Assembly: GCF_018139625.1 (NCBI RefSeq)
Contig: NZ_JAGSOH010000027.1
Span: 32,284-69,053 of the forward strand
Length of the DNA stretch: 36,770 nucleotides
Direction: 5' to 3'
From: Actinospica acidithermotolerans
GTDB taxonomy: Bacteria; Actinomycetota; Actinomycetes; Streptomycetales; Catenulisporaceae
This document shows, in pieces, positions 5,956 to 21,289 of this stretch (its first letter is position 1; each line of letters starts with the position of its first letter). Under the pieces are notes generated by a model. It worked only from the letters and a program-made list of their open reading frames with translations. It made no database searches and was not told the DNA's origin. The position numbers were made by a program, and so were the translations under genes.

Positions 5956-7422
5956 CTACGAGGCCATCTTCCAACTCTGGCTCGCCGCGCCGGAGCAGGT
6001 CGCGACCTGCAGCAGCGTGCCGTCGGCGGTGGCTCCGCCGACCGTGTCGAGGCAGAGGGTCGAGTCGGCGGCGCTGGTGATCGTGCCGCTGGAGTTCACC
6101 GTCCACTGCTGGTCGGTGGCGCCGGTGCAGCTTTCCAGGACGACGGCGGCGCCGGACGCGACGGACGAGGTGCCCGCCTGCATGCACATGTCGCCGTACA
6201 CGCTCAGTTCCTTGCTGCCGGTGTAGTCCCAGGTCTGGTTGCCGCCCGCGTTGCAGTCCCACATGTCGAGCTGTGTGCCGGCGGTGGTGGAGAAGCCGGG
6301 GACGTCGACGCAGCGGCTGGAGGCCGAGCTGACGATCTCCTCACCGGGAGGGGCGGCCGGCTGGTCGTTGACCGGCGGGACGGTACCGAAGCCGTAGCCC
6401 CACTGGAGCTGCGCGACGCCCGAGGCGCTGTTGTTCGTCAGCTTGCCGTCCGAGCCGAGGGACTCGATCGAGTAGGAGTCGCCGAAGCGCAGGCCGGGCC
6501 AGTAGACCAGCCCCATGCCCATACCGCGGGCGATGTCGGTGGTGGCGGCGAGGTACGACGTGTACGTATTGCCGTTGTGCGCGCCGTAGTTCAAGCCGAT
6601 CGTCATCGGCGCGCCTGCCTCGTCGATGATCGTGCGCGAGGCGTAGGCGCCGAGGCGCGGAAGCAGGTTGTTGATCCAGTCCGCCTCGGTCGTGTAGCTG
6701 GCCCAGTAGCCGTAGAAGTGCAGCGACAGCAGCGTGCCGTCCAGGGCGGGGGCCGCGCCGACCGCCGTCACGTTGTCGTTGTAGCCGGTGCCGCTGACGA
6801 CCACGCGGTTACGCGGGATGTAGGCGCGGTCCGTCACCCACTGCGTGGCGATCGACACCCATTGGCCGGCCGAGTAGCCGTACGGCTCGTTCATCGGCTC
6901 GAAGTACACGCGCGGGTTGTTCGCGTACGCCTTGGTGACGGTGTCCCACATCTGGTTCCACGTCGTCGTGTCGTCGATCACGCCGTCGTTGGAGGACTTC
7001 TCGTCCCAGTAGCTCAGGATGACCTTGTCGCCGTTCGCGGTCGCGGCGTCGATCGTCGCGCGGTACGAGTTCCACCACGCGGTTCCGACGCTCGCCGGGT
7101 TGATCGGCAGCCGCAGGGTGTTGGCGCCGAGGTTCTTGCGGAAGCCGGCGACCATGTTCTGCGCGATCTTGTAGACCTGGCCGTAGGAGTCGCCGGTGCT
7201 CAGCCCGCTCGGCACCACCGGACCGCTGTTGTAGTTGTCGTTCGGGTCGGCCCAGTTCACCCCGTGGAAGCTGCTCGGCGCCGCGGCGGCCGAGGCTGCG
7301 GACGAGTCGGCCGCCGACGAGCTGCCGGCGCTCGCGGTGGCGGTCGCGGCCGCGGTCGCGACCAGTCCTGCGGTGACGACGAGGGCAGCACATCGGCGCC
7401 AGTTGGAAAGTTGCACAGTCAT
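5956..7422 (-). CDS. Secreted GH5 glycoside hydrolase with ricin-type lectin domain
   Basis: A 488-residue exported endo-glycanase. Residues 1-32 form a signal peptide (WRRC, then a hydrophobic core, then ATASA), followed by a Ser/Ala linker to about 50. The GH5 barrel spans about 51-345. It has LRLPI at 103-107, the acid/base glutamate E179 in EPMNEP, H235 in LHFYGYW, and a likely nucleophile E268 in IIDEAG. A beta-trefoil (RICIN) module fills 364-488, with CVDV, QTWDY, QQW and QSW repeats. The family suggests cellulase or mannanase activity; the substrate is not determined. The ATG at 7422 has its only Shine-Dalgarno-like GGGAG just 2 bases away, whereas a GTG two codons later (7416) has it at 8 bases and may be the true start. 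A strong dyad lies upstream. Confidence 0.92.
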   Translation of the reverse strand: MTVQLSNWRRCAALVVTAGLVATAAATATASAGSSSAADSSAASAAAAPSSFHGVNWADPNDNYNSGPVVPSGLSTGDSYGQVYKIAQNMVAGFRKNLGANTLRLPINPASVGTAWWNSYRATIDAATANGDKVILSYWDEKSSNDGVIDDTTTWNQMWDTVTKAYANNPRVYFEPMNEPYGYSAGQWVSIATQWVTDRAYIPRNRVVVSGTGYNDNVTAVGAAPALDGTLLSLHFYGYWASYTTEADWINNLLPRLGAYASRTIIDEAGAPMTIGLNYGAHNGNTYTSYLAATTDIARGMGMGLVYWPGLRFGDSYSIESLGSDGKLTNNSASGVAQLQWGYGFGTVPPVNDQPAAPPGEEIVSSASSRCVDVPGFSTTAGTQLDMWDCNAGGNQTWDYTGSKELSVYGDMCMQAGTSSVASGAAVVLESCTGATDQQWTVNSSGTITSAADSTLCLDTVGGATADGTLLQVATCSGAASQSWKMAS

Positions 7423-7426
7423 CGCT

Positions 7427-7460
7427 CCCGAGTGATTAATTCGCCCATGAATTAACTCGG
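7427..7460. promoter_or_regulatory. AT-rich operator-like palindrome before the GH5 gene
   Basis: The repeat TTAATTC (7436-7442)-GCCCAT-GAATTAA (7449-7455) is perfect. It is framed by outer arms CCGAGT (7427-7432 region) and ACTCGG, giving an extended dyad with a 3-base bulge. It sits immediately 5' of the GH5 start in otherwise GC-rich DNA, so it is a good candidate for a sugar-responsive repressor site. No matching regulator is in the window. Confidence 0.6.
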
Positions 7461-7501
7461 CTGGACGGTAGGCCCGCGCCGCCCGGCTGTCAAGATCAAT
7501 A

Positions 7502-7966
7502 TCAGGGTACGACGATCACCGGGCACGGTGCGGTGCGCGCCAGCCGGGCGGAGAGGGAGCCGACGCCGAACCAGCGGTGGACGAGGCGTTCCGACGCGCC
7601 CACGACGAGTGCCGAGACGTGCAGATCGCGGGCCAGGTTGCGGATCGTCTCGGCGGGCGGGCCCTCCAGGACCGTGAACGCGCACGCGGTCCCGAGCCGC
7701 AGGGCGCTCTCGGCGAGGTACTCCCCCGCCTCCCTGGCGACCTCGGACTCGGCGGACTGCGCGTAGGCCGTGACCCCGGGATTGGCGAGCACCAGGGCAC
7801 TGTACTGGCGCACGTAGACGCCCACGACGCCGACGCCGTTGCGGCGGGCGAGGCCGGCCGCGTAGTCGGCGGCGCGCAGCGAGGTCCGGGAGAGATCGAC
7901 GGCGACGAGCACGCAGTTCGGCGCGATGGTGCCGATGTCCGTGCCGCTGAGCTGGTGGACGGTCAT
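7502..7966 (-). CDS. Universal stress protein (UspA family)
   Basis: A 154-residue single-domain Usp. The first strand CVLVAVDLS begins at about residue 18; D25 is the usual base-contacting aspartate position. Near the end, ALVVGASERLVHRWFGVGS followed by SARLARTAPCPVIVVP gives the G-x2-x(8-10)-G-S signature of the ATP-binding class, though the first glycine spacing is atypical. ATG 7966 is used; an ATG at 7981, adding MRAPA, is equally possible because neither has a strong ribosome-binding site. It is divergent from a TetR regulator, with 120 bases between starts, and transcribed toward the GH5 gene. Its role in stress or dormancy is inferred from the family. Confidence 0.85.
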   Translation of the reverse strand: MTVHQLSGTDIGTIAPNCVLVAVDLSRTSLRAADYAAGLARRNGVGVVGVYVRQYSALVLANPGVTAYAQSAESEVAREAGEYLAESALRLGTACAFTVLEGPPAETIRNLARDLHVSALVVGASERLVHRWFGVGSLSARLARTAPCPVIVVP

Positions 7967-8051
7967 GGCCGGCGCTCGCATTCGTCTCAATCCGCGGATC
8001 GCTCTGCCGTCACCATACGCCCAAAGTGGCACCCAGTGTCAACCTGGCCCG

Positions 8052-8073
8052 CCCGTGTCGTAGCTAACACGGG
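8052..8073. promoter_or_regulatory. TetR-type operator CCCGTGT-N8-ACACGGG
   Basis: A perfect inverted repeat with 7-base arms and an 8-base spacer, 13 bases before the TetR ATG in the gap shared with the Usp gene. The size and position fit an autoregulatory TetR operator. The regulator may also act on the divergent Usp gene. Confidence 0.65.
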
Positions 8074-8086
8074 TAAAGTGGACGTC

Positions 8087-8740
8087 ATGTCGATCGAATC
8101 GTCCGCGGTTCCCGCGCCCGGCCTGCGCGAACGCACCCGGCGCGCGGTGCGGGCCGAACTGACGGCGGTGGCCCTGGACCTGTTCCTGCAGCGCGGCTTC
8201 GAGGCGACGACGGTGGACGAGATCGCCGCGGCCGCGGGCATCTCGCGACGCAGCCTGTTCCGCTATTTCGCCTCGAAGGAGGCGATCATCTTCGACAACC
8301 TCCAGGACGTCGGCGAGACGCTGGCCGAGGCGCTGGCGAAACGTCCGTACGACGAGGACGCCTGGGTGGCGCTGCGCCGCTCTTTCGAGGTCGTGACCGC
8401 CTACAACGTGGACAACCCCGAGCGCACCTTGGCCTTCTGGCGGATGCTCGAGGAGACGGCGTCGCTCAAGGCTCGGCACTTCCAGCAGCTGATGAGCTGG
8501 CAGCAACTGCTGGTCCCGGACATCTCCGTGCGCCTCGGCGAGGCCGGTCCGGCCGCGAACGGCAACGGGAGCGGCGGCTACCCCGACGGCGAGTACGGCC
8601 CCCGCGCCCCGGCCGTCGTCGGCGCCGCGCTCGCCTGCCTGGACGCGGCGAACCACGCCTGGCTCCGCTCACAGGGCAGGGCGGACGTCGTGCAACTCCT
8701 CGATGAGGCGATGCGCGCCGTCCGCCCTGCCCAGTTCTGA
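8087..8740 (+). CDS. TetR-family transcriptional regulator
   Basis: A 217-residue repressor. The TetR helix-turn-helix lies at about residues 20-66: ALDLFLQRGFEATTVDEIA, then AAGISRRSLFRYFASKEAI, the canonical turn with the F-R-Y-F-x-S-K-E motif. The rest is the helical ligand-binding domain and has no recognisable ligand signature. It includes a Gly/Asn-rich flexible insert at about 165-180 (ANGNGSGGYPDG), unusual inside a TetR core and probably a surface loop. The ATG at 8087 lies downstream of a perfect 22-base dyad. It converges on the oxidoreductase gene with only 17 bases between stops. Its most likely targets are itself and the divergent Usp gene. Confidence 0.9.
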   Translation: MSIESSAVPAPGLRERTRRAVRAELTAVALDLFLQRGFEATTVDEIAAAAGISRRSLFRYFASKEAIIFDNLQDVGETLAEALAKRPYDEDAWVALRRSFEVVTAYNVDNPERTLAFWRMLEETASLKARHFQQLMSWQQLLVPDISVRLGEAGPAANGNGSGGYPDGEYGPRAPAVVGAALACLDAANHAWLRSQGRADVVQLLDEAMRAVRPAQF

Positions 8741-8757
8741 AGAGACTTCGCCGGCCG

Positions 8758-9618
8758 TCAGGCCTTGAGCGCCTGGGCGACGGCCTCGGCGACAGTGGTC
8801 GTCGGGCGGCCGATCAGGGTCTTGAGGGTGTCGGTGGCGTCGGCGAGCGCGCCCGCGGAGATGGCGACGTCGGCCTGGGCCAGCTCGACCGCGATCGCCG
8901 CGGGGATCCCGAAGCCCTCGAGCGCCTTCGCGTACTCCTGCTCGGGCAGCGTGACGTAGCCGACCTGCTTGCCGGACTGCGCGGAGACCTCGGCGGCGAT
9001 CTCGGCGTTGGGGATCGCGACGTCGCCGGAGAGCTCGTAGACCTGGCCCTCGTGGCCCTCGCCGGTGAGCACGGCGGCGGCAGCGGCTGCGTAGTCGGCG
9101 CGGGTCGCGTAGCCGATCCTGCCCTCGCCGGCCGAGCCGATGAACGCGCCGTGCTCCAGGGCGGCGCCGACCGAGCCCAGCAGGTTCTCGAAGTACCAGT
9201 TGTTGCGCAGGAAGGTGAAGGGGATGCCGGACTCGATGATCGCGGCCTCGGTGTCCCTGTGCACCCGCGAGAAGGCGATCGCGTTGCCGTCCGCCTTGGT
9301 GATGGACGTGTAGACGAGGTGCTTGACTCCGGCCTGCTTCGCCGCGGCCACCGCGTTCAGGTGCTGCCCGAGCCGCTCGTCGCTGGTGCCCATGCTGGAG
9401 ATCAGCAGGAGCTTCTCGGCGCCCTCGAGCGCGGCGACCAGGCTGCCCTGGTCGGTGTAGTCGCCGCGGACGACCTCGACGCCGCGGTCGGCGAAGTCGG
9501 CGAGCTTGGCCGTGTCGCGCACGACGGCGCGGATGCCGGAGGCGGCGACGCCGCGGCCGAGCAGGTCCTCGAGGACGAGGCGGCCGAGGTTTCCGCTGGC
9601 CGCGGTGATGACGATCAT
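8758..9618 (-). CDS. NmrA/QOR2-type NAD(P)H-dependent oxidoreductase
   Basis: A 286-residue cytosolic Rossmann-fold protein of the atypical SDR group. The N-terminus has the dinucleotide loop TAASGNLGRLV. There follow VVRGDYTDQGSL, the strand LVYTSITKAD, and FTFLRNNWYFEN, a run typical of type 2 quinone oxidoreductases (YtfG/QorB). There is no YxxxK catalytic pair, as expected in this subfamily. The ATG at 9618 has GGGAG 8 bases upstream. It is divergent from an HxlR gene, the same pairing as the ytfG-ytfH arrangement seen widely in bacteria, which suggests induction by quinones or electrophiles. Quinone reduction is inferred from the family, not proven. Confidence 0.88.
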   Translation of the reverse strand: MIVITAASGNLGRLVLEDLLGRGVAASGIRAVVRDTAKLADFADRGVEVVRGDYTDQGSLVAALEGAEKLLLISSMGTSDERLGQHLNAVAAAKQAGVKHLVYTSITKADGNAIAFSRVHRDTEAAIIESGIPFTFLRNNWYFENLLGSVGAALEHGAFIGSAGEGRIGYATRADYAAAAAAVLTGEGHEGQVYELSGDVAIPNAEIAAEVSAQSGKQVGYVTLPEQEYAKALEGFGIPAAIAVELAQADVAISAGALADATDTLKTLIGRPTTTVAEAVAQALKA

Positions 9619-9671
9619 GAGGGGACTCCCGTCGTACGGTGCTGGCGATGCAGGACGTGCGCTCGTCGGAG

Positions 9672-9726
9672 GCACTTACCCGAGGATGGCACTAACTTTT
9701 AGAAAGTGCAATCTGAGCGATAGTGC
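9672..9726. promoter_or_regulatory. Symmetric array of four GCACT/AGTGC half-sites
   Basis: Between the oxidoreductase and HxlR starts, GCACT occurs at 9672-9676 and 9689-9693 and its complement AGTGC at 9705-9709 and 9722-9726. Spacings are 17, 16 and 17 bases, and the array is mirror-symmetric about base 9699. A nested ACTTT-TAG-AAAGT dyad occupies 9695-9707. The pattern suggests cooperative binding of the HxlR dimer. Confidence 0.65.
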
Positions 9727-9761
9727 TGTCTTGCGGCGGGCACGGGGTTATCCTGGAGGGT

Positions 9762-10175
9762 ATGGATACGCAGCAGACGCCCGCCGACGCCGACGCGGGC
9801 GAGGACTTCGCGTTCGACGTGCTGGCTCAGCGCTGTCCGTCGCGCCCGGTCCTCGAGCACATCACCGGGCGCTGGGGCTCGCTCGTGCTGATCGCGCTGC
9901 GGGAGAAGCCGGCCAGGTTCAACGAGCTGCGCCGCCGCGTCGGCGGGGTGAGCGAGAAGATGCTCGCCCAGGGCCTGCACGCGCTGGAACGCGACGGCTT
10001 CGTCGCACGCGAGGTGCACTCGACCATCCCGCCGCGGGTCGAGTACAGCCTGACGCCGCTCGGTTCGCAGACCGCGGAGATGCTCTGGGAGCTGATCATG
10101 CACCTGGAGTACGCGATGCCGCACGTGCTCCGGTCCCAGCAGTCCTACGACGCCGCCGCCAGCGCCGAGGCCTGA
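9762..10175 (+). CDS. HxlR-family regulator (YtfH-like)
   Basis: A 137-residue winged-helix regulator. It carries the HxlR core from about residue 25: CPSRPVLEHITGRWGSLVLIALRE, then RFNELRRRVGGVSEKMLAQ for the recognition region, and PPRVEYSLTPLGSQ in the wing. A single cysteine (C25) just before the first helix is the position used for redox sensing in several HxlR proteins, so an oxidant or quinone signal is plausible. ATG 9762 follows GGAGGG very closely (about 2 bases), a short but usable spacing. It is divergent from the QOR2-like gene with a symmetric four-site operator between them. Its 3' end overlaps the SBF-like transporter gene on the other strand by 31 bases. Confidence 0.9.
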   Translation: MDTQQTPADADAGEDFAFDVLAQRCPSRPVLEHITGRWGSLVLIALREKPARFNELRRRVGGVSEKMLAQGLHALERDGFVAREVHSTIPPRVEYSLTPLGSQTAEMLWELIMHLEYAMPHVLRSQQSYDAAASAEA

Positions 10176-11161
10176 GGCCCCGCCCCGTCCGCGAGGGCTT
10201 CCGGCGCCTGCCGCCGGGCGTAGCGCCGGGAGAGCGCGGCGCAGGCGATCAGCTGGATCTGATGGAAGATCATCAGCGGTAGGACGATCGTACTGACCGT
10301 CGCCGCCGGGAACAGCAGTGTGGCCATCGGCAGCCCGCTGGCCAGGCTCTTCTTCGAACCGCAGAACACCGCAGCGATCCGGTCCCCGCGATCGAACCCC
10401 AGCATTCGGGCGCCGACCGTCGAGATAGTGAGCACGATCGCGAGCAGCGCGACGTCGATCACGCCCACCGCGACGAGCTGCTGCCACGAGACGCGGTGCC
10501 AGATCCCCGCGACGACGCCGGCGCCGAACGCCGTATAGACGACGATGAGCACGGATCCGCGATCGACCGAAGCCAGAGCACGCGGGTGCCTCTTGAGCGC
10601 GGGCGAGATCCTTGACCGCAGAAGCTGCCCGGCCAAGAACGGAAGCAGCAGCTGCGCGGCGACACTCAGCATCGATGAGCCGGACACGCGTGCGTTCGCG
10701 CCGAGCAGCACGGACACGAGCAGTGGCGAGAGCACGACGCCGATCAGATTCGACATGGAGGCCGAGCAGACGGCCGCGGCGACGTTTCCGCGGGCTATCG
10801 ACGTGAAGGCGATCGAGGACTGCACGGTCGACGGAAGAACGCTCAGAAAGACCAGCCCGACGAACAGCTCGTGCGGGATGAGCCCGGGTTCGAGCAGCGT
10901 GAGCGGCAGCATGAGCAGTGGGAACACGACGAACGTGAGCGTGAAGATGAGCAGGTGCAGGCGCCACTGACGCATCCCGTCGAGTGCGGCGCGAGGTGAG
11001 AGGCGTGCGCCGTGCAAGAAGAACAGCAGGCAGATTCCGGCCGTGCTCAGATCGCTGAAGGCGCGGGCGCCGGCGCCGCGCGCGGGGAGCACGGAGGCGA
11101 TCGCGACGGTCGCGAGCAGCGAGAGGATGAACGGGTCGAGACTGGAGCGGAGCCTTTGCAC
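10145..11161 (-). CDS. SBF-like transporter (bile acid:sodium symporter family)
   Basis: A 338-residue protein with about ten hydrophobic helices, matching the SBF-like (YfeH-type) branch of the bile acid:sodium symporter superfamily. Features are a first helix LLATVAIASVLPARG, CLLFFLHGARLSP, PSTVQSSIAFTSIARGN with the polar break typical of the crossover region, and FCGSKKSLASGLPMA in the second repeat. No ATG is in a suitable place; GTG at 11159-11161 is chosen because GGATG precedes it and the frame upstream runs into the divergent LysR gene. The substrate is unknown; family members move organic anions or drugs with sodium. It is divergent from a LysR regulator that probably controls it. 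The 3' end overlaps the HxlR gene. Confidence 0.85.
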   Translation of the reverse strand: MQRLRSSLDPFILSLLATVAIASVLPARGAGARAFSDLSTAGICLLFFLHGARLSPRAALDGMRQWRLHLLIFTLTFVVFPLLMLPLTLLEPGLIPHELFVGLVFLSVLPSTVQSSIAFTSIARGNVAAAVCSASMSNLIGVVLSPLLVSVLLGANARVSGSSMLSVAAQLLLPFLAGQLLRSRISPALKRHPRALASVDRGSVLIVVYTAFGAGVVAGIWHRVSWQQLVAVGVIDVALLAIVLTISTVGARMLGFDRGDRIAAVFCGSKKSLASGLPMATLLFPAATVSTIVLPLMIFHQIQLIACAALSRRYARRQAPEALADGAGPQASALAAAS

Positions 11162-16852: not shown

Positions 16853-17605
16853 GTGAGACCCGCATCCGCACCCGCCCACGTCGCCTGCATCATGGACGGA
16901 AACCGGCGCTGGGCCGAGCAGAACGGCCTGCCGGAAACCGCCGGACACCGCGCCGGCCGCTCCGCGGCGCTGGACGTCATCGACGCCGCCCGCAGCGCCG
17001 GGGTGCGCTGGCTGACGCTGTTCGCGTTCTCCAGCGAGAACTGGCGCCGTCCGGGCGAAGAGGTCGCCTTCCTGATGCAACTGGTGCAGCACACCGTCCG
17101 CCGGCACGCCCTGGCGTTGCACGCGAAGGACATCCGCTGCCGGTTCCTGGGAGCCGCCGACGCCCGAATACCCGCCGCGCTGCGCCGCGACATCGCGGAC
17201 CTGGAGAACCTCACGCGCGACAACCGCGGCATGACCCTCACCGCGGCGTTCGGCCACGGCGGACGCGGCGACCTGATCTCGGCCGCCCGCTCGTTGATCC
17301 GCGCGGGCGTCCCGGCGGACGCGGTGACCGAGGAGCTTTTCGCCGCGCACCTGCCGCTGCCCGACACGCCCGACGTCGACCTCGTCGTGCGCACATCCGG
17401 CGAGCAGCGGATCTCCAACTTCATGCTCTGGCAGGTCGCCTACGCCGAGTGGGTGTACCCGCCGGAGCTGTGGCCCGACTTCGGCACCGAGCAGTTCCTG
17501 CGGTGCCTCGACACGTACAGCCGCCGTCAGCGCCGATTCGGCGCCCGCCCTCAGAACCCTGCGCATCACACCGACGGGAGCGAACCTTGTCTGACGCGAC
17601 TTTGA
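16853..17605 (+). CDS. cis-Prenyltransferase (undecaprenyl diphosphate synthase family)
   Basis: A 250-residue cytosolic or membrane-peripheral enzyme that adds isopentenyl diphosphate units in cis to an allylic diphosphate. Seen are the catalytic aspartate D15 in MDGNRRWAEQ, then ETAGHRAG, FAFSSENWRRP, the changed segment FGHGGRGDL where family members often have NYGGR, and the substrate-binding end VDLVVRTSGEQRISNF with QVAYAEWVYPPELWPDF. GTG 16853 has AAGGA 8 bases upstream. The last 19 bases overlap the start of the oxygenase gene, so the two are probably translated together. It may be a second, specialised copy rather than the essential cell-wall enzyme, because of its partner. Product chain length cannot be read off. 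Confidence 0.9.
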   Translation: MRPASAPAHVACIMDGNRRWAEQNGLPETAGHRAGRSAALDVIDAARSAGVRWLTLFAFSSENWRRPGEEVAFLMQLVQHTVRRHALALHAKDIRCRFLGAADARIPAALRRDIADLENLTRDNRGMTLTAAFGHGGRGDLISAARSLIRAGVPADAVTEELFAAHLPLPDTPDVDLVVRTSGEQRISNFMLWQVAYAEWVYPPELWPDFGTEQFLRCLDTYSRRQRRFGARPQNPAHHTDGSEPCLTRL

Positions 17606-19020
17606 CCGACACCACCCCCTACCCGCTGCTGCGCGAGCTGAGCAACGAACTGGGCTGGGGCCTCGCCGTGGTCCGCGCGGCCGTCCTTCAGGCGGCGCTG
17701 CCGCAGATCGCCGCCGCGCTCGCCGACCAGTCCACCTTCGTCACCCATCCCTGGCGACGGCTGCACAACACCATGGCCAGCGTGGAACGGCTGCTCGACG
17801 AGGACGCCGCGGTCCGCGAGCGCGAAGTCGCCCGGCTCAACCGGCTGCACGCGCGGATCACCGGCGCCGGCCCGAACGGCACCTCCTACAGCGGTCTCGA
17901 CCCGGAGGGGCGCGCGTGGGTCATCGCGACCCTCTTCGAGTCCTCCGTGACGATGCGCCGCAACAGCGGACGCGCGCTCGACTGGTCCGCACAGGAGCAG
18001 CTGTACGCGGAGTTCCGGCGGCTGCTCGCGGCCTTCGGCGACGACGCGTCCGTGCTGCCGGAGCAGCTCTCCCGGTTCTGGCCGTACTACCAGCAGATGC
18101 TCTCCGAGCGGCTTGAGCACACCGACGCCGTGGACGCCGTGCTCTACCGCCTGCTCGACGCGGTGCCGCCGCCTCCGGTGCTGCGGGACCAGCGCACCGC
18201 GTGGGCCGCGGTGCGCTCGATCGCCGGGCCGGTCGCCGCCCGGGTCACCGTCGCGTCGCTGCCGCCGACGTTCCGCGAGCGGGTGCGGATCGACAGCCCC
18301 GTGCTGTCCGACGCGCTGATGGTCGGCGCGTACCGCGGCAGCGGCCTGGCCACGCTCGCTCTGCCGGTCCTCTCCAACCCGTGGACGCTCGCGAGCGTTA
18401 TGGACGGGGACGGGGACGGCGATCAGTCCGCCTCGCCGCTGTTCGGCGCCCTGCTGCGCGGCGCGAGCGCGTTCACGTCGGTCGTCCGGGCGGCGCGTCC
18501 CGCGCAGCCCGCCGCCTCCGGGCCGAACCGGGACGCCGAGCCGTGGCCCGCGCAGCGCTTCTTCGTGAACGTGCTCGATCAGACCGGCGACGGCACGGTC
18601 AGCTGGCCCGACCTCGCGGCGCTGGCCCGCGAGGTCGCCTCCCGCCTGGATCTGGACGCGGACCGGGAAACAGAGGTCTACGACGCGTTCCACGGCTGGT
18701 GGCGGGAACTGTCCGCGGCCCTCGACACCGACGGCGACGGCGTCGTCTCGCTCCAGGAGTACGTCGCCGGCTCCGCGAACCTGCCCGCGCCCGCGCTCGT
18801 CCGCCTCGCCGACGTCCTGTTCGAGGTCACCGACGTCGACGGCAGCGGCACGATCTCCGCGCAGGAGTATCGCAAGCTGCTGCACACCGGCTTCTCGCAC
18901 GAGCTCCCCGGCCCGCCCGGCGCGGACCTGACCAAGTCCGCCTTCACGACGGAGTTCATGCACTTCATGGCCGGGCGCCGGCCGTCGACGGCCTGGGAGC
19001 GGCTGACCACGGACAGTTGA
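17587..19020 (+). CDS. DUF2236 (MpaB/latex-clearing-type) oxygenase fused to EF-hands
   Basis: A 477-residue protein. Residues about 45-245 match DUF2236, the heme-oxygenase fold shared by rubber-cleaving Lcp and fungal MpaB: HPWRRLHNT, then NRLHARITGAGPNGTSY (H88 is a likely heme ligand), LDPEGRAWVIATLFES, and LPPTFRERV. Residues 325-430 carry three EF-hand loops: 331-342 (DQTGDGTVSWPD, ending in D rather than E), 380-391 (DTDGDGVVSLQE) and 416-427 (DVDGSGTISAQE). A degenerate fourth hand may follow at about 447. An acidic DGDGDGD run lies at 273-279. The start is TTG 17587, with GGGAG 7 bases upstream, inside the prenyltransferase gene. No signal peptide is seen. Calcium-gated oxidation of a prenyl chain is an inference from the fusion and the neighbour. 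Confidence 0.85.
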   Translation: MSDATLTDTTPYPLLRELSNELGWGLAVVRAAVLQAALPQIAAALADQSTFVTHPWRRLHNTMASVERLLDEDAAVREREVARLNRLHARITGAGPNGTSYSGLDPEGRAWVIATLFESSVTMRRNSGRALDWSAQEQLYAEFRRLLAAFGDDASVLPEQLSRFWPYYQQMLSERLEHTDAVDAVLYRLLDAVPPPPVLRDQRTAWAAVRSIAGPVAARVTVASLPPTFRERVRIDSPVLSDALMVGAYRGSGLATLALPVLSNPWTLASVMDGDGDGDQSASPLFGALLRGASAFTSVVRAARPAQPAASGPNRDAEPWPAQRFFVNVLDQTGDGTVSWPDLAALAREVASRLDLDADRETEVYDAFHGWWRELSAALDTDGDGVVSLQEYVAGSANLPAPALVRLADVLFEVTDVDGSGTISAQEYRKLLHTGFSHELPGPPGADLTKSAFTTEFMHFMAGRRPSTAWERLTTDS

Positions 19021-19120
19021 CCACGGACAGCTGACCGGCCGCCGCCGAAGGATCTGCCTGCGCCGCCGGGCGCCGCGCTCGCTATTGTGGCCGGTGCCGT
19101 CGACAGTAGGCAGGGAGACC

Positions 19121-21289
19121 GTGGTCGAGGAGATACGCACAGCCGCTCCGGCAGATGTCAAGGCACTGCTGGAGCGGGCCGCGGGCCTGCGCGCGAAGAT
19201 CGACGGGCTGCACGCGAGCGAGCAGGAGCTCCACGAGGCGGTGCGCGGCGCGTATCAGGCCTCGCATACTGCGGCGGTGCGCGGCCGGCTGACGGGCATC
19301 CCCGTCGAACGGCTCAAGGACGTGACCGGGGCCAGGCTCCCGGCGGACAGGCTCGCGGAGGCCGGGTACCGGACCGTCGCGGATCTGGACGGCGTCACGG
19401 CCGAGACGCTGCAAGGGATTCCCGGCGTCGGCCGGGTCGGCGCCGAGCGGACCGTCGAGGCGGTCCGGCGCATCGCGGAGGCCGCCGAGCAGAACACCGG
19501 CGTCACCGCGGACATGGACCTGCGCGGACCGGACGCCGCGGCGCTGCTCACGTCGCTGTACCGGGCACGCGTCGCGGACCGGGTGATGGAGCGGGTGCGC
19601 GAGCCGGCGGCCCGTTTGAGCGGCGCGATCACGAGCCTGGCGACCGCCGCCAAGCCGCTCGGCGGGCGCGTACGCAGGCTGTTCCTCGGCCGCACCCGAC
19701 GCGACGAGGCCCAGCGCGCGTACACCGAGCTCGACGGACTGCTCGCGAATCCGCGCACGGTCAAGGATCTGGACCGGATCGACGCGGCCGAACGGCGCTT
19801 GCAGGCCAAGCCGCCGCGTCCCGCCACGGCGCGCAACGACTTCGAGAAGCACTCCGCCGACTATTTCAGCACCCTCAGCCGGATCATCGGCGATCACCAC
19901 CGCTCCGAGGCCTCGCGCGGATTCCTCACGGACGACCTCGCCTCACGGGTCGGCGCCCAGCAGCTCGACGAGACGCATCTGCGCGTCGCGCTGCGTCCGT
20001 ACCAGGCGTTCGGCGCACGGTTCGCGCTCGCTCAGCGGCGCGTCGTACTCGGCGACGAGATGGGCTGCGGCAAGACCGTCGAATCGATCGCGGCGCTCGC
20101 GCACCTGCGGGCCGAGGGCGCGCGGCACTTCCTGGTCGTGTGCCCGGCCAGCGTCCTGGTCAACTGGATGCGCGAGGTCGCCTCGCACAGCACGCTGCGC
20201 GCGCACCGGCTGCACGGATCCCAGCGCGCCGCGGGCCTGCGCGCCTGGATCCGCGGCGGCGGCGTGGGCGTGACGACGTTCGAAGCGCTGCAGGGGCTCG
20301 ACGTGCCGGAGAAGCTGGCCGTGGGCATGCTCGTGGTCGACGAGGCGCATTACGTGAAGAACCCTGACACGATGCGTTCCATCGCCGTGCGCGCGTGGTG
20401 CGATCGGGTGGAGCGCGTGCTGTTCCTGACCGGCACGCCGATGGAGAACCGCGTCGAGGAGTTCCGCAACCTGGTCGGATACCTCCAGCCCGAGGTCGTC
20501 GCCTCGATCGGCGAGATCGACGCGGTGGCCGGCTCCGAGGCCTTCCGCCGCGCGGTCGGCCCGGCGTATCTGCGGCGCAACCAGGAGGACGTGCTCTCCG
20601 AGCTGCCGGAGCTCGTGCAGGTGGACGAGTGGACCGAGTTCGGCCCCGAGGACGAGCTCGCCTACAAGGAGGCCGTGGCCGCGCGCAGCTTCATGGGCAT
20701 GCGCCGCGCCGCGTACGCGTCGCAGGATCCGGCCTCGTGCGCCAAGCTGGCGAGGCTCGTCGAGATCGCCGACGAGGCCGCCTCGAACGGCCGCAAGGTC
20801 GTCGTGTTCTCCTACTTCCGCGACGTGCTCGACCTGGTCTGCCGCACCCTCGGCGAGGACCGCGTCTTCGGCCCGCTGACCGGCGGCGTCCAGCCTGCCC
20901 TCCGGCAGGAGATGGTCGACCGGTTCAGCGCGACGAAGGGCCACGCGGTCCTCGCCAGCCAGATCCAGGCGGGCGGCGTCGGCCTGAACATGCAGGCGGC
21001 CTCCGTGATCATTCTGTGCGAGCCGCAGGTCAAGCCGACGCTCGAGACCCAGGCCATCGCCCGCGCGCACCGGATGGGCCAGATCCGCCGCGTCCAGGTG
21101 CACCGGCTGCTGGCCGCCGACAGCGTCGACCAGCGCATGCTCGAGATCCTGGAGACCAAGAAAGAGCTCTTCGACGCCTTCGCCCGCCGCAGCGACACCG
21201 CCGAGAAGATGCCCGAGGCCGTCGACATCGGCCCCTCCGTCGCCCGCCAGGTGATCGCCGCCGAACGCGAGCGGCTCGGCCTCGGCTAG
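19121..21289 (+). CDS. SNF2-family helicase with N-terminal HhH domain
   Basis: A 722-residue ATP-dependent DNA translocase. Residues 60-118 hold a helix-hairpin-helix (LAEAGYRTVADLDGVTAETL, then GIPGVGRVGAER), a DNA-binding element. A helical region of about 170 residues follows. The SNF2 ATPase has Walker A at 311-319 (GDEMGCGKT), DEAH at 407-410, LTGTP at 436-440 and the C-terminal RecA lobe with QAGGVGLNM and QAIARAHRMGQ at 644-654. All catalytic motifs are intact. GTG 19121 follows GGGAG, and a -10-like TATTGT lies about 30 bases upstream. It sits 100 bases after the oxygenase gene but appears to have its own promoter. It converges on the amidase gene. Its role, whether DNA repair, remodelling or defence, is not shown by context. 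Confidence 0.9.
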   Translation: MVEEIRTAAPADVKALLERAAGLRAKIDGLHASEQELHEAVRGAYQASHTAAVRGRLTGIPVERLKDVTGARLPADRLAEAGYRTVADLDGVTAETLQGIPGVGRVGAERTVEAVRRIAEAAEQNTGVTADMDLRGPDAAALLTSLYRARVADRVMERVREPAARLSGAITSLATAAKPLGGRVRRLFLGRTRRDEAQRAYTELDGLLANPRTVKDLDRIDAAERRLQAKPPRPATARNDFEKHSADYFSTLSRIIGDHHRSEASRGFLTDDLASRVGAQQLDETHLRVALRPYQAFGARFALAQRRVVLGDEMGCGKTVESIAALAHLRAEGARHFLVVCPASVLVNWMREVASHSTLRAHRLHGSQRAAGLRAWIRGGGVGVTTFEALQGLDVPEKLAVGMLVVDEAHYVKNPDTMRSIAVRAWCDRVERVLFLTGTPMENRVEEFRNLVGYLQPEVVASIGEIDAVAGSEAFRRAVGPAYLRRNQEDVLSELPELVQVDEWTEFGPEDELAYKEAVAARSFMGMRRAAYASQDPASCAKLARLVEIADEAASNGRKVVVFSYFRDVLDLVCRTLGEDRVFGPLTGGVQPALRQEMVDRFSATKGHAVLASQIQAGGVGLNMQAASVIILCEPQVKPTLETQAIARAHRMGQIRRVQVHRLLAADSVDQRMLEILETKKELFDAFARRSDTAEKMPEAVDIGPSVARQVIAAERERLGLG

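Follow-up and report, generated by a model that had tools for sequence, protein, structure and literature searches.

The window analysed here is a stretch of 36,770 nucleotides from Actinospica acidithermotolerans (contig NZ_JAGSOH010000027.1), whose genome is available as 7.9 Mb in 422 contigs. Two consecutive genes on its forward strand are the subject of this work. The first encodes a cis-prenyltransferase (cPT), and the second an MpaB-type oxygenase fused to a C-terminal EF-hand domain, referred to as MpaB-EF. The two form a dedicated, co-inherited unit of overlapping or abutting genes that recurs in many soil actinomycetes. Their features are listed below. All counts out of 24 refer to 24 paired MpaB-EF proteins, and the positions of the rubber oxygenase LcpK30 were mapped by motif spacing and by the comparison with Nro1 in PMC12724181, so that they are sequence-based and not structural.

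16853-17605, forward strand: dedicated cis-prenyltransferase (PF01255), one of three cPT genes in the genome
17576-17580, forward strand: GGGAG motif in the sequence, resembling a ribosome-binding site for MpaB-EF, inside the cPT gene
17587-19020, forward strand: MpaB-type oxygenase fused to an EF-hand domain, 477 residues, with an alternative in-frame TTG at 17602
17656-18315, forward strand: MPAB_Lcp_cat domain (PF09995, Pfam), residues 24-243
17758-17772, forward strand: distal-pocket motif R58-L-H-N61-T62, aligned with the positions of LcpK30 Arg164, Lys167 and Thr168
17848-17850, forward strand: His88, predicted proximal heme ligand (LcpK30 His198), invariant in 24/24
18577-18612, forward strand: EF-hand loop 1, residues 331-342, DQTGDGTVSWPD, canonical-like in 24/24
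18724-18759, forward strand: EF-hand loop 2, residues 380-391, DTDGDGVVSLQE, canonical-like in 23/24
18832-18867, forward strand: EF-hand loop 3, residues 416-427, DVDGSGTISAQE, canonical-like in 14/24 when Gly is required at loop position 6, where the other proteins mainly vary
18892-18957, forward strand: vestigial fourth EF-hand region, about residues 436-457, no Asp-rich loop in 24/24 as judged by eye

The cPT gene starts with GTG at 16853, and its stop codon ends at 17605, which is inside the MpaB-EF gene (TTG start at 17587, stop ending at 19020). The overlap of 19 bases and the TTG start are as described in the initial annotation of this DNA. The TTG at 17587 is favoured because it is preceded by the GGGAG motif and because a TTG start stands in the same GGGAG context in a Catenulispora homologue, where the overlap is 8 nt. 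This homologue, from Catenulispora rubra DSM 44948, is 72% identical and was the single locus found when the genome contigs were scanned with one sequence. A second in-frame TTG at 17602, the one picked by the gene caller, gives a 4-nt overlap. With the window and its Catenulispora relative set aside, a start codon that would give a 4-nt overlap is present in 21 of 22 pairs; in the remaining one (L095; L and G numbers are our handles for loci and genomes) a start lies just past the cPT stop.

The pairing of the two genes was followed across genomes at increasing distance. Among the first 99 genomes (the host and 98 relatives), 19, the host included, carry a nearly full-length MpaB-EF homologue with at least 47% identity. 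In every one of the 19, a cPT lies directly upstream, and in the 18 others it is 65-83% identical to the cPT of the window. A profile of this cPT scores at least 435 bits in the same 19 genomes and does not exceed 281 bits in the other genomes. MpaB-EF is found in 2 of 14 genomes of the host's own family and is absent from the two other genomes of its genus.

When the search was extended to 391 genomes of the order (the best 4 and best 7 candidates per genome being scored), 95 were found to match the paired MpaB-EF clade, one of them (G839) with a truncated gene. The other 94 hold an intact MpaB-EF with a cPT directly upstream on the same strand. A cPT of at least 435 bits occurs in these same 94 genomes and in no others, and 297 have neither gene; four of the 297 (G1033, G847, G1074 and G050), with cPTs of 281-318 bits, were counted as lacking the dedicated clade. 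At this threshold, none of the 391 genomes has an intact gene of the paired clade without its partner. The gap between the matched stretches ranges from -13 to 197 bases, with a median of 16.5 over the 94 genomes. Adjacency far exceeds what chance would give, Fisher's test on the genomes of the order yielding p 4.7e-93, a statistic that ignores kinship. Adjacency in other genomes had been set beforehand as the refuting test of the proposal, and 94 of the 94 intact copies adjoin a cPT.

That the two genes are chance neighbours, or that one has hitchhiked with the other, would be favoured by the few copies that stand alone. These are the MpaB-EF of G839, a second copy in G1029, a second cPT in G1059 and a remnant in G050. 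However, all of them are truncated, partial or damaged. The first is truncated, the second contains a stop, the third is partial, and the last (L096, G050:C266, 5088-5878) is a broken MpaB-EF with no cPT match within the 14 kb read. The pairing in 94 of 94 genomes, moreover, persists while the other neighbours change. Chance adjacency is refuted by this count, and we give it next to no probability.

Beyond the order, 394 genomes of the class yielded five more intact MpaB-EF copies, all in one other family, and all five adjoin a cPT. A set of 396 genomes of the phylum gave no match outside the order that reached E 1e-45; this sample is thin, since it did not show the five copies of the other family. 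The pair is also carried by plasmids. In seven plasmid records, all from Streptomyces, the two genes are adjacent in seven of seven. Two of these records, whose annotation was read, are both linear, and in one of them the annotated start gives a 143-base gap.

The unit does not seem to extend beyond these two genes. Around 25 loci that were read (19 pairs and 6 unpaired EF fusions), gene calling by a simple script and all-against-all comparison gave no family present at more than 5 loci apart from the two anchors. A larger gene cluster was rejected, as no other gene is conserved around the 19 pair loci. The next gene in the window, on the same strand as the pair, encodes an SNF2-type helicase (19085-21289) that also matches a helix-hairpin-helix weakly; this gene is not kept next to the other copies of the pair in the loci read.

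The paired cPTs and the paired MpaB-EF proteins are each monophyletic (100/99), with the long branches beside the cPT clade flagged in the tree computation. The distance matrices of the two proteins are correlated with r 0.89 over 24 pairs, and none of 2000 permutations was as high. Within a single family (f2, 17 pairs), r is 0.68, again with 0 of 2000 permutations as high. The single operon claimed initially agrees with conserved adjacency, with overlapping or abutting genes and with co-inheritance.

The cPT is by itself a full-length PF01255 enzyme (242 bits against a cut-off of 27; TIGR00055 226.9 bits against 109.55). It is not the housekeeping UppS, since the host genome holds two more cPT genes and the paired form falls into a separate clade (100/99). 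Thirty-one positions and a short deletion set it apart from 11 other cPT rows, a position being counted as clade-typical when it holds in at least 90% of the pair rows against at least 75% of the others. These other rows are assumed to be housekeeping, one of them (L122) branches near the pair clade, and the start of L094 was left untrimmed. The host's own cPT L059 is absent from this comparison and, like locus L133, from the cPT tree, both having been missed by the motif filter. The strand before the GGR motif reads AFDHGGR or AFGHGGR in the pair clade versus CVNYGGR in the other rows. The separating positions and the deletion together suggest that the paired cPT differs in chain length or in primer.

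The PLSDB records label the pair 'uppS' and 'oxygenase MpaB family protein', and the cPT of the plasmid records is annotated as uppS with a peptidoglycan Gene Ontology term. Such labels would favour a role with the lipid carrier of the cell wall, in which the pair supplies an extra UppS and a calcium-controlled polyprenol degrader, for example under antibiotic stress. Yet this cPT forms a clade of its own and comes on top of the other copies, its presence is sporadic (94/391 genomes) and extends to plasmids, and only the pair itself is conserved nearby. We consider a cell-wall role very unlikely.

The oxygenase part of MpaB-EF matches PF09995 at 144.8 bits (cut-off 23), and the host genome holds one further gene with this domain. 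The initial annotation had called the fold Lcp/MpaB-type. The MpaB half of this label holds; the Lcp half could not be demonstrated, as no Lcp was found among the 3 hits at E<=10 or among the best 60 of 390 rows in profile searches of the PDB. The heme of LcpK30 is bound by His198 on the proximal side and by Lys167 on the distal side; activity requires Arg164 and Thr168, and Glu148 is important (PMC5522427). The residues R58, T62 and H88, at the positions of Arg164, Thr168 and His198, are invariant in 24 of 24 pairs, and His88 is also invariant in a 14-row MpaB alignment. The His88 named in the initial annotation is the predicted proximal ligand. The matching heme-site positions are present in Nro1 as well, according to its authors (PMC12724181). 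The position of Glu148 (residue 47; D47 in the window) is acidic in 20 of 24 pairs. The position of Lys167 is Arg in 11 aligned EF-less relatives and His in the five unpaired EF-fused proteins that have the region; as this lysine is conserved in only 59% of Lcps (PMC5522427), it is a weak criterion for an Lcp. Judged by these residues, the domain looks like an active heme site with altered distal chemistry.

As for its location, no twin-arginine translocation motif occurs within the first 60 residues of any of the 24 paired proteins in a simple pattern scan. Simple scans found no secretion signal either, the highest 19-residue hydropathy mean being 1.67. Degradation of rubber outside the cell was set aside on this ground. 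The comparison with Lcp is thus less apt than first proposed, and the near relatives are bacterial proteins of the MpaB family.

The C-terminal part of MpaB-EF is matched by Pfam EF-hand_1 at 45 bits. The three EF-hand loops lie exactly where the initial annotation had placed them, and the count of three holds for canonical loops; the domain itself has four EF-hands, the fourth loop appearing degenerate in 24 of 24 pairs when inspected by eye. An intact fourth loop, of the type DHDGDGRITEEE, is retained in the unpaired EF-fused MpaB clade. The Asp-rich DGDGDGD linker of the window protein is not conserved. The best PDB profile matches of the region, among the best 60 of 390 rows, are 3aka and 3akb (E 1e-8), which carry the title 'Putative calcium binding protein' and which we take to be Streptomyces CabC. 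The binding of calcium is likely, and an effect of calcium on the oxygenase is a guess. By analogy, a C-terminal calcium switch is plausible because the change of LcpK30 between open and closed states involves C-terminal helices (PMC5522427).

The unpaired EF fusions form a second MpaB-EF clade, represented by L052, L053, L054, L055, L056 and L057 and by the plasmid records H8, H10 and H16. The fourth EF loop is intact in the six aligned loci, and there is no paired-type cPT match nearby. Two copies have a P450 next door, and those of the S. goshikiensis-type plasmids have a saccharopine-dehydrogenase-like gene. In a tree that leaves out the truncated L056, the paired (24) and unpaired (5) EF-fused proteins form one group (100/98), so that the EF fusion probably arose once, and pairing with a cPT would be a property of one branch.

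The intermediate cPTs (281-318 bits) have no MpaB-EF partner, and the extra cPTs in these genomes seem to have several different partners. At L144 (G847:C23:20001-35000, 6529-9269), a cPT, an SQS_PSY protein overlapping by 4 nt and an EF-less MpaB stand in a row as an apparent three-gene operon. In G1074, the cPT likewise overlaps an SQS_PSY gene by 4 nt. The divergent cPT at L143 (G1033:C71, 6791-9213) has a P450 upstream, and the one at L128 (G050:C43, 4791-7868) is beside an AMP-binding enzyme. In addition, all four long cPT frames that were scanned with Pfam (a fifth, L129, was outside the scan) join a squalene/phytoene-synthase-like domain (SQS_PSY, PF00494) to a complete cPT (PF01255):

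L127 (G017:C1:408001-426000), 8741-10651: SQS_PSY-cPT fusion, Pfam
L130, 6518-8392: SQS_PSY-cPT fusion, Pfam
L131, 6555-8243: SQS_PSY-cPT fusion, Pfam
L132, 6381-8456: SQS_PSY-cPT fusion, Pfam

The nearer of two MpaB genes around the fusion at L127 lies on the opposite strand at a distance of about 1.2 kb, with a DUF6230 gene in between. The other, a weaker match (63.8 bits), is about 5 kb from the fusion and adjoins a polyprenyl synthetase. Two MpaB-family genes and the polyprenyl synthetase are thus within about 6 kb. The EF-less MpaB genes near a cPT at L144 and L127 hint that MpaB works with cPTs, though only as anecdotes, for a genome commonly has such genes (0-8 MpaB genes each in the 99 genomes).

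From these observations, we infer catalysis, heme, substrate, chain length, a calcium effect and a biological use. The explanation we favour, with moderate confidence, is a self-contained two-gene pathway that makes a cis-prenyl diphosphate and then oxidises or cleaves it inside the cell, with calcium tuning the oxygenase. The dedicated cPT would condense isopentenyl diphosphate onto an allylic primer, and the resulting cis-prenyl diphosphate would probably differ in length from the cell-wall carrier. The co-translated, intracellular heme protein could then use O2 at a carbon-carbon double bond of the chain or of the derived alcohol. Most likely, the chain would be cleaved oxidatively, giving a shorter isoprenoid that is an aldehyde or a ketone; cleavage of double bonds in prenyl or polydiene chains has been reported or proposed for enzymes of the MpaB family (PMC12724181). 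The EF-hand domain, of the type of the small Streptomyces calcium-binding protein, would bind calcium and thereby open, close or place the oxygenase. The interpretation offered initially, an operon that makes and oxidatively cuts or tailors a cis-prenyl product under calcium control, is in this way supported in part: the dedicated unit and the conserved pocket residues hold, and the likeness to Lcp is less fitting.

Several observations weigh against this explanation. Related EF-fused MpaB genes occur without a paired-type cPT at the 6 loci read, and 11 matches in the search of the order, checked against the listed cPT matches only, are also without one. Ten of the 24 pairs have a relaxed EF loop 3. 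In the pocket, the position of the distal ligand Lys167 is Asn in 24 of 24 pairs, that of Glu148 is Thr in three and Ala in one, and the second His of the WVH motif, present in 11 of 11 aligned EF-less relatives, is replaced by V, I or L. The predicted structure of the oxygenase domain, built on an alignment of the window protein and one Catenulispora protein, has low confidence (mean predicted local distance difference test score 43.7), and the EF region is confident in part only. Lastly, no phosphatase belongs to the two-gene unit.

The departures in the pocket bear on two other explanations. An Asn where LcpK30 has Lys167 and the missing WVH histidine are signs of altered chemistry. In the first alternative, the oxygenase would hydroxylate, epoxidise or otherwise tailor or cyclise the cis-prenyl product into an ordinary terpenoid, with no cleavage of the chain. 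The SQS_PSY proteins, P450 or AMP-binding enzyme adjoining other divergent cPT genes also point this way. Nevertheless, Lcp, the fungal MpaB and Nro1 are reported or proposed to be cleavers of carbon-carbon double bonds (PMC12724181, PMC5522427), and tailoring is a rather unlikely alternative. The same departures from LcpK30, along with the strict co-occurrence and the correlated evolution, would fit an MpaB-EF that is mainly non-catalytic and binds or regulates the cPT, calcium changing the interaction. Two-subunit eukaryotic cPTs provide the comparison for such an arrangement. However, the heme-site residues R, T and H do not vary in any of the 24 pairs, which is hard to explain without heme, and the cPT is a complete enzyme on its own. 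This alternative is therefore regarded as improbable.

Returning to the two-gene pathway, a bolder form of it can be put forward tentatively. Here, a cis-polyprenyl chain would be made only to be cut inside the cell when calcium rises, freeing a short apo-isoprenoid that may serve as a signal, a volatile or an antibiotic building block. If the pathway is as proposed, it would be a minimal one of two genes, carried by roughly one in four of the order's sampled genomes and by Streptomyces plasmids too. It would represent a common, apparently undescribed pathway of antibiotic-producing bacteria, overlooked owing to the annotation of its first gene as a cell-wall uppS. Further, cis-prenyl chains would join the substrates of MpaB-type alkene-cleaving enzymes, and bacteria would provide a case in which calcium has a direct action on isoprenoid chemistry. 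A system of two genes would also be small enough for joint expression and assay.

The absence of any described system of this make-up had been claimed at the outset. In the open-access literature searched, which leaves subscription journals and preprints outside its scope, no description of the MpaB-EF/cPT pairing was found; the claim stands for that literature, and a description elsewhere is possible. Each component, on the other hand, has known counterparts. UppS, decaprenyl and (2Z,6E)-farnesyl-diphosphate-type cPTs (PDB 7cpn, 2vg2 and 1jp3) are complete PF01255 enzymes like the paired cPT, but the latter forms a separate clade with its 31 clade-typical positions against 11 actinomycete rows. 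The proteins of 3aka and 3akb are free and small (166 residues), whereas the corresponding region of MpaB-EF is fused to an oxygenase and has lost its fourth loop. To our knowledge, the fungal MpaB has neither EF-hands nor a cPT partner. It is bound to the endoplasmic reticulum (Pfam title) and acts on a farnesyl phthalide, and in these respects differs from MpaB-EF. It is nonetheless of the same domain family and, in the mycophenolic acid pathway, makes an oxidative attack on a prenyl chain from its own pathway (PMC12724181). Nro1 of Gordonia sp. J1A is of the MpaB type and shares with MpaB-EF the heme-site R and T and the His downstream of them; the consulted part of its description makes no mention of an EF domain or a cPT partner, and MpaB-EF has both (PMC12724181). 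LcpK30 belongs to the same Pfam domain family, and the equivalents of its His198, Arg164 and Thr168 are kept in MpaB-EF (PMC5522427). In the consulted part of the same paper, cis-prenyltransferases are mentioned once, as the makers of natural rubber. Lcp is extracellular, has the distal Lys167 and acts on rubber in the environment (PMC5522427), while MpaB-EF has no secretion signal, an Asn at the lysine position and a dedicated partner that makes the chain.
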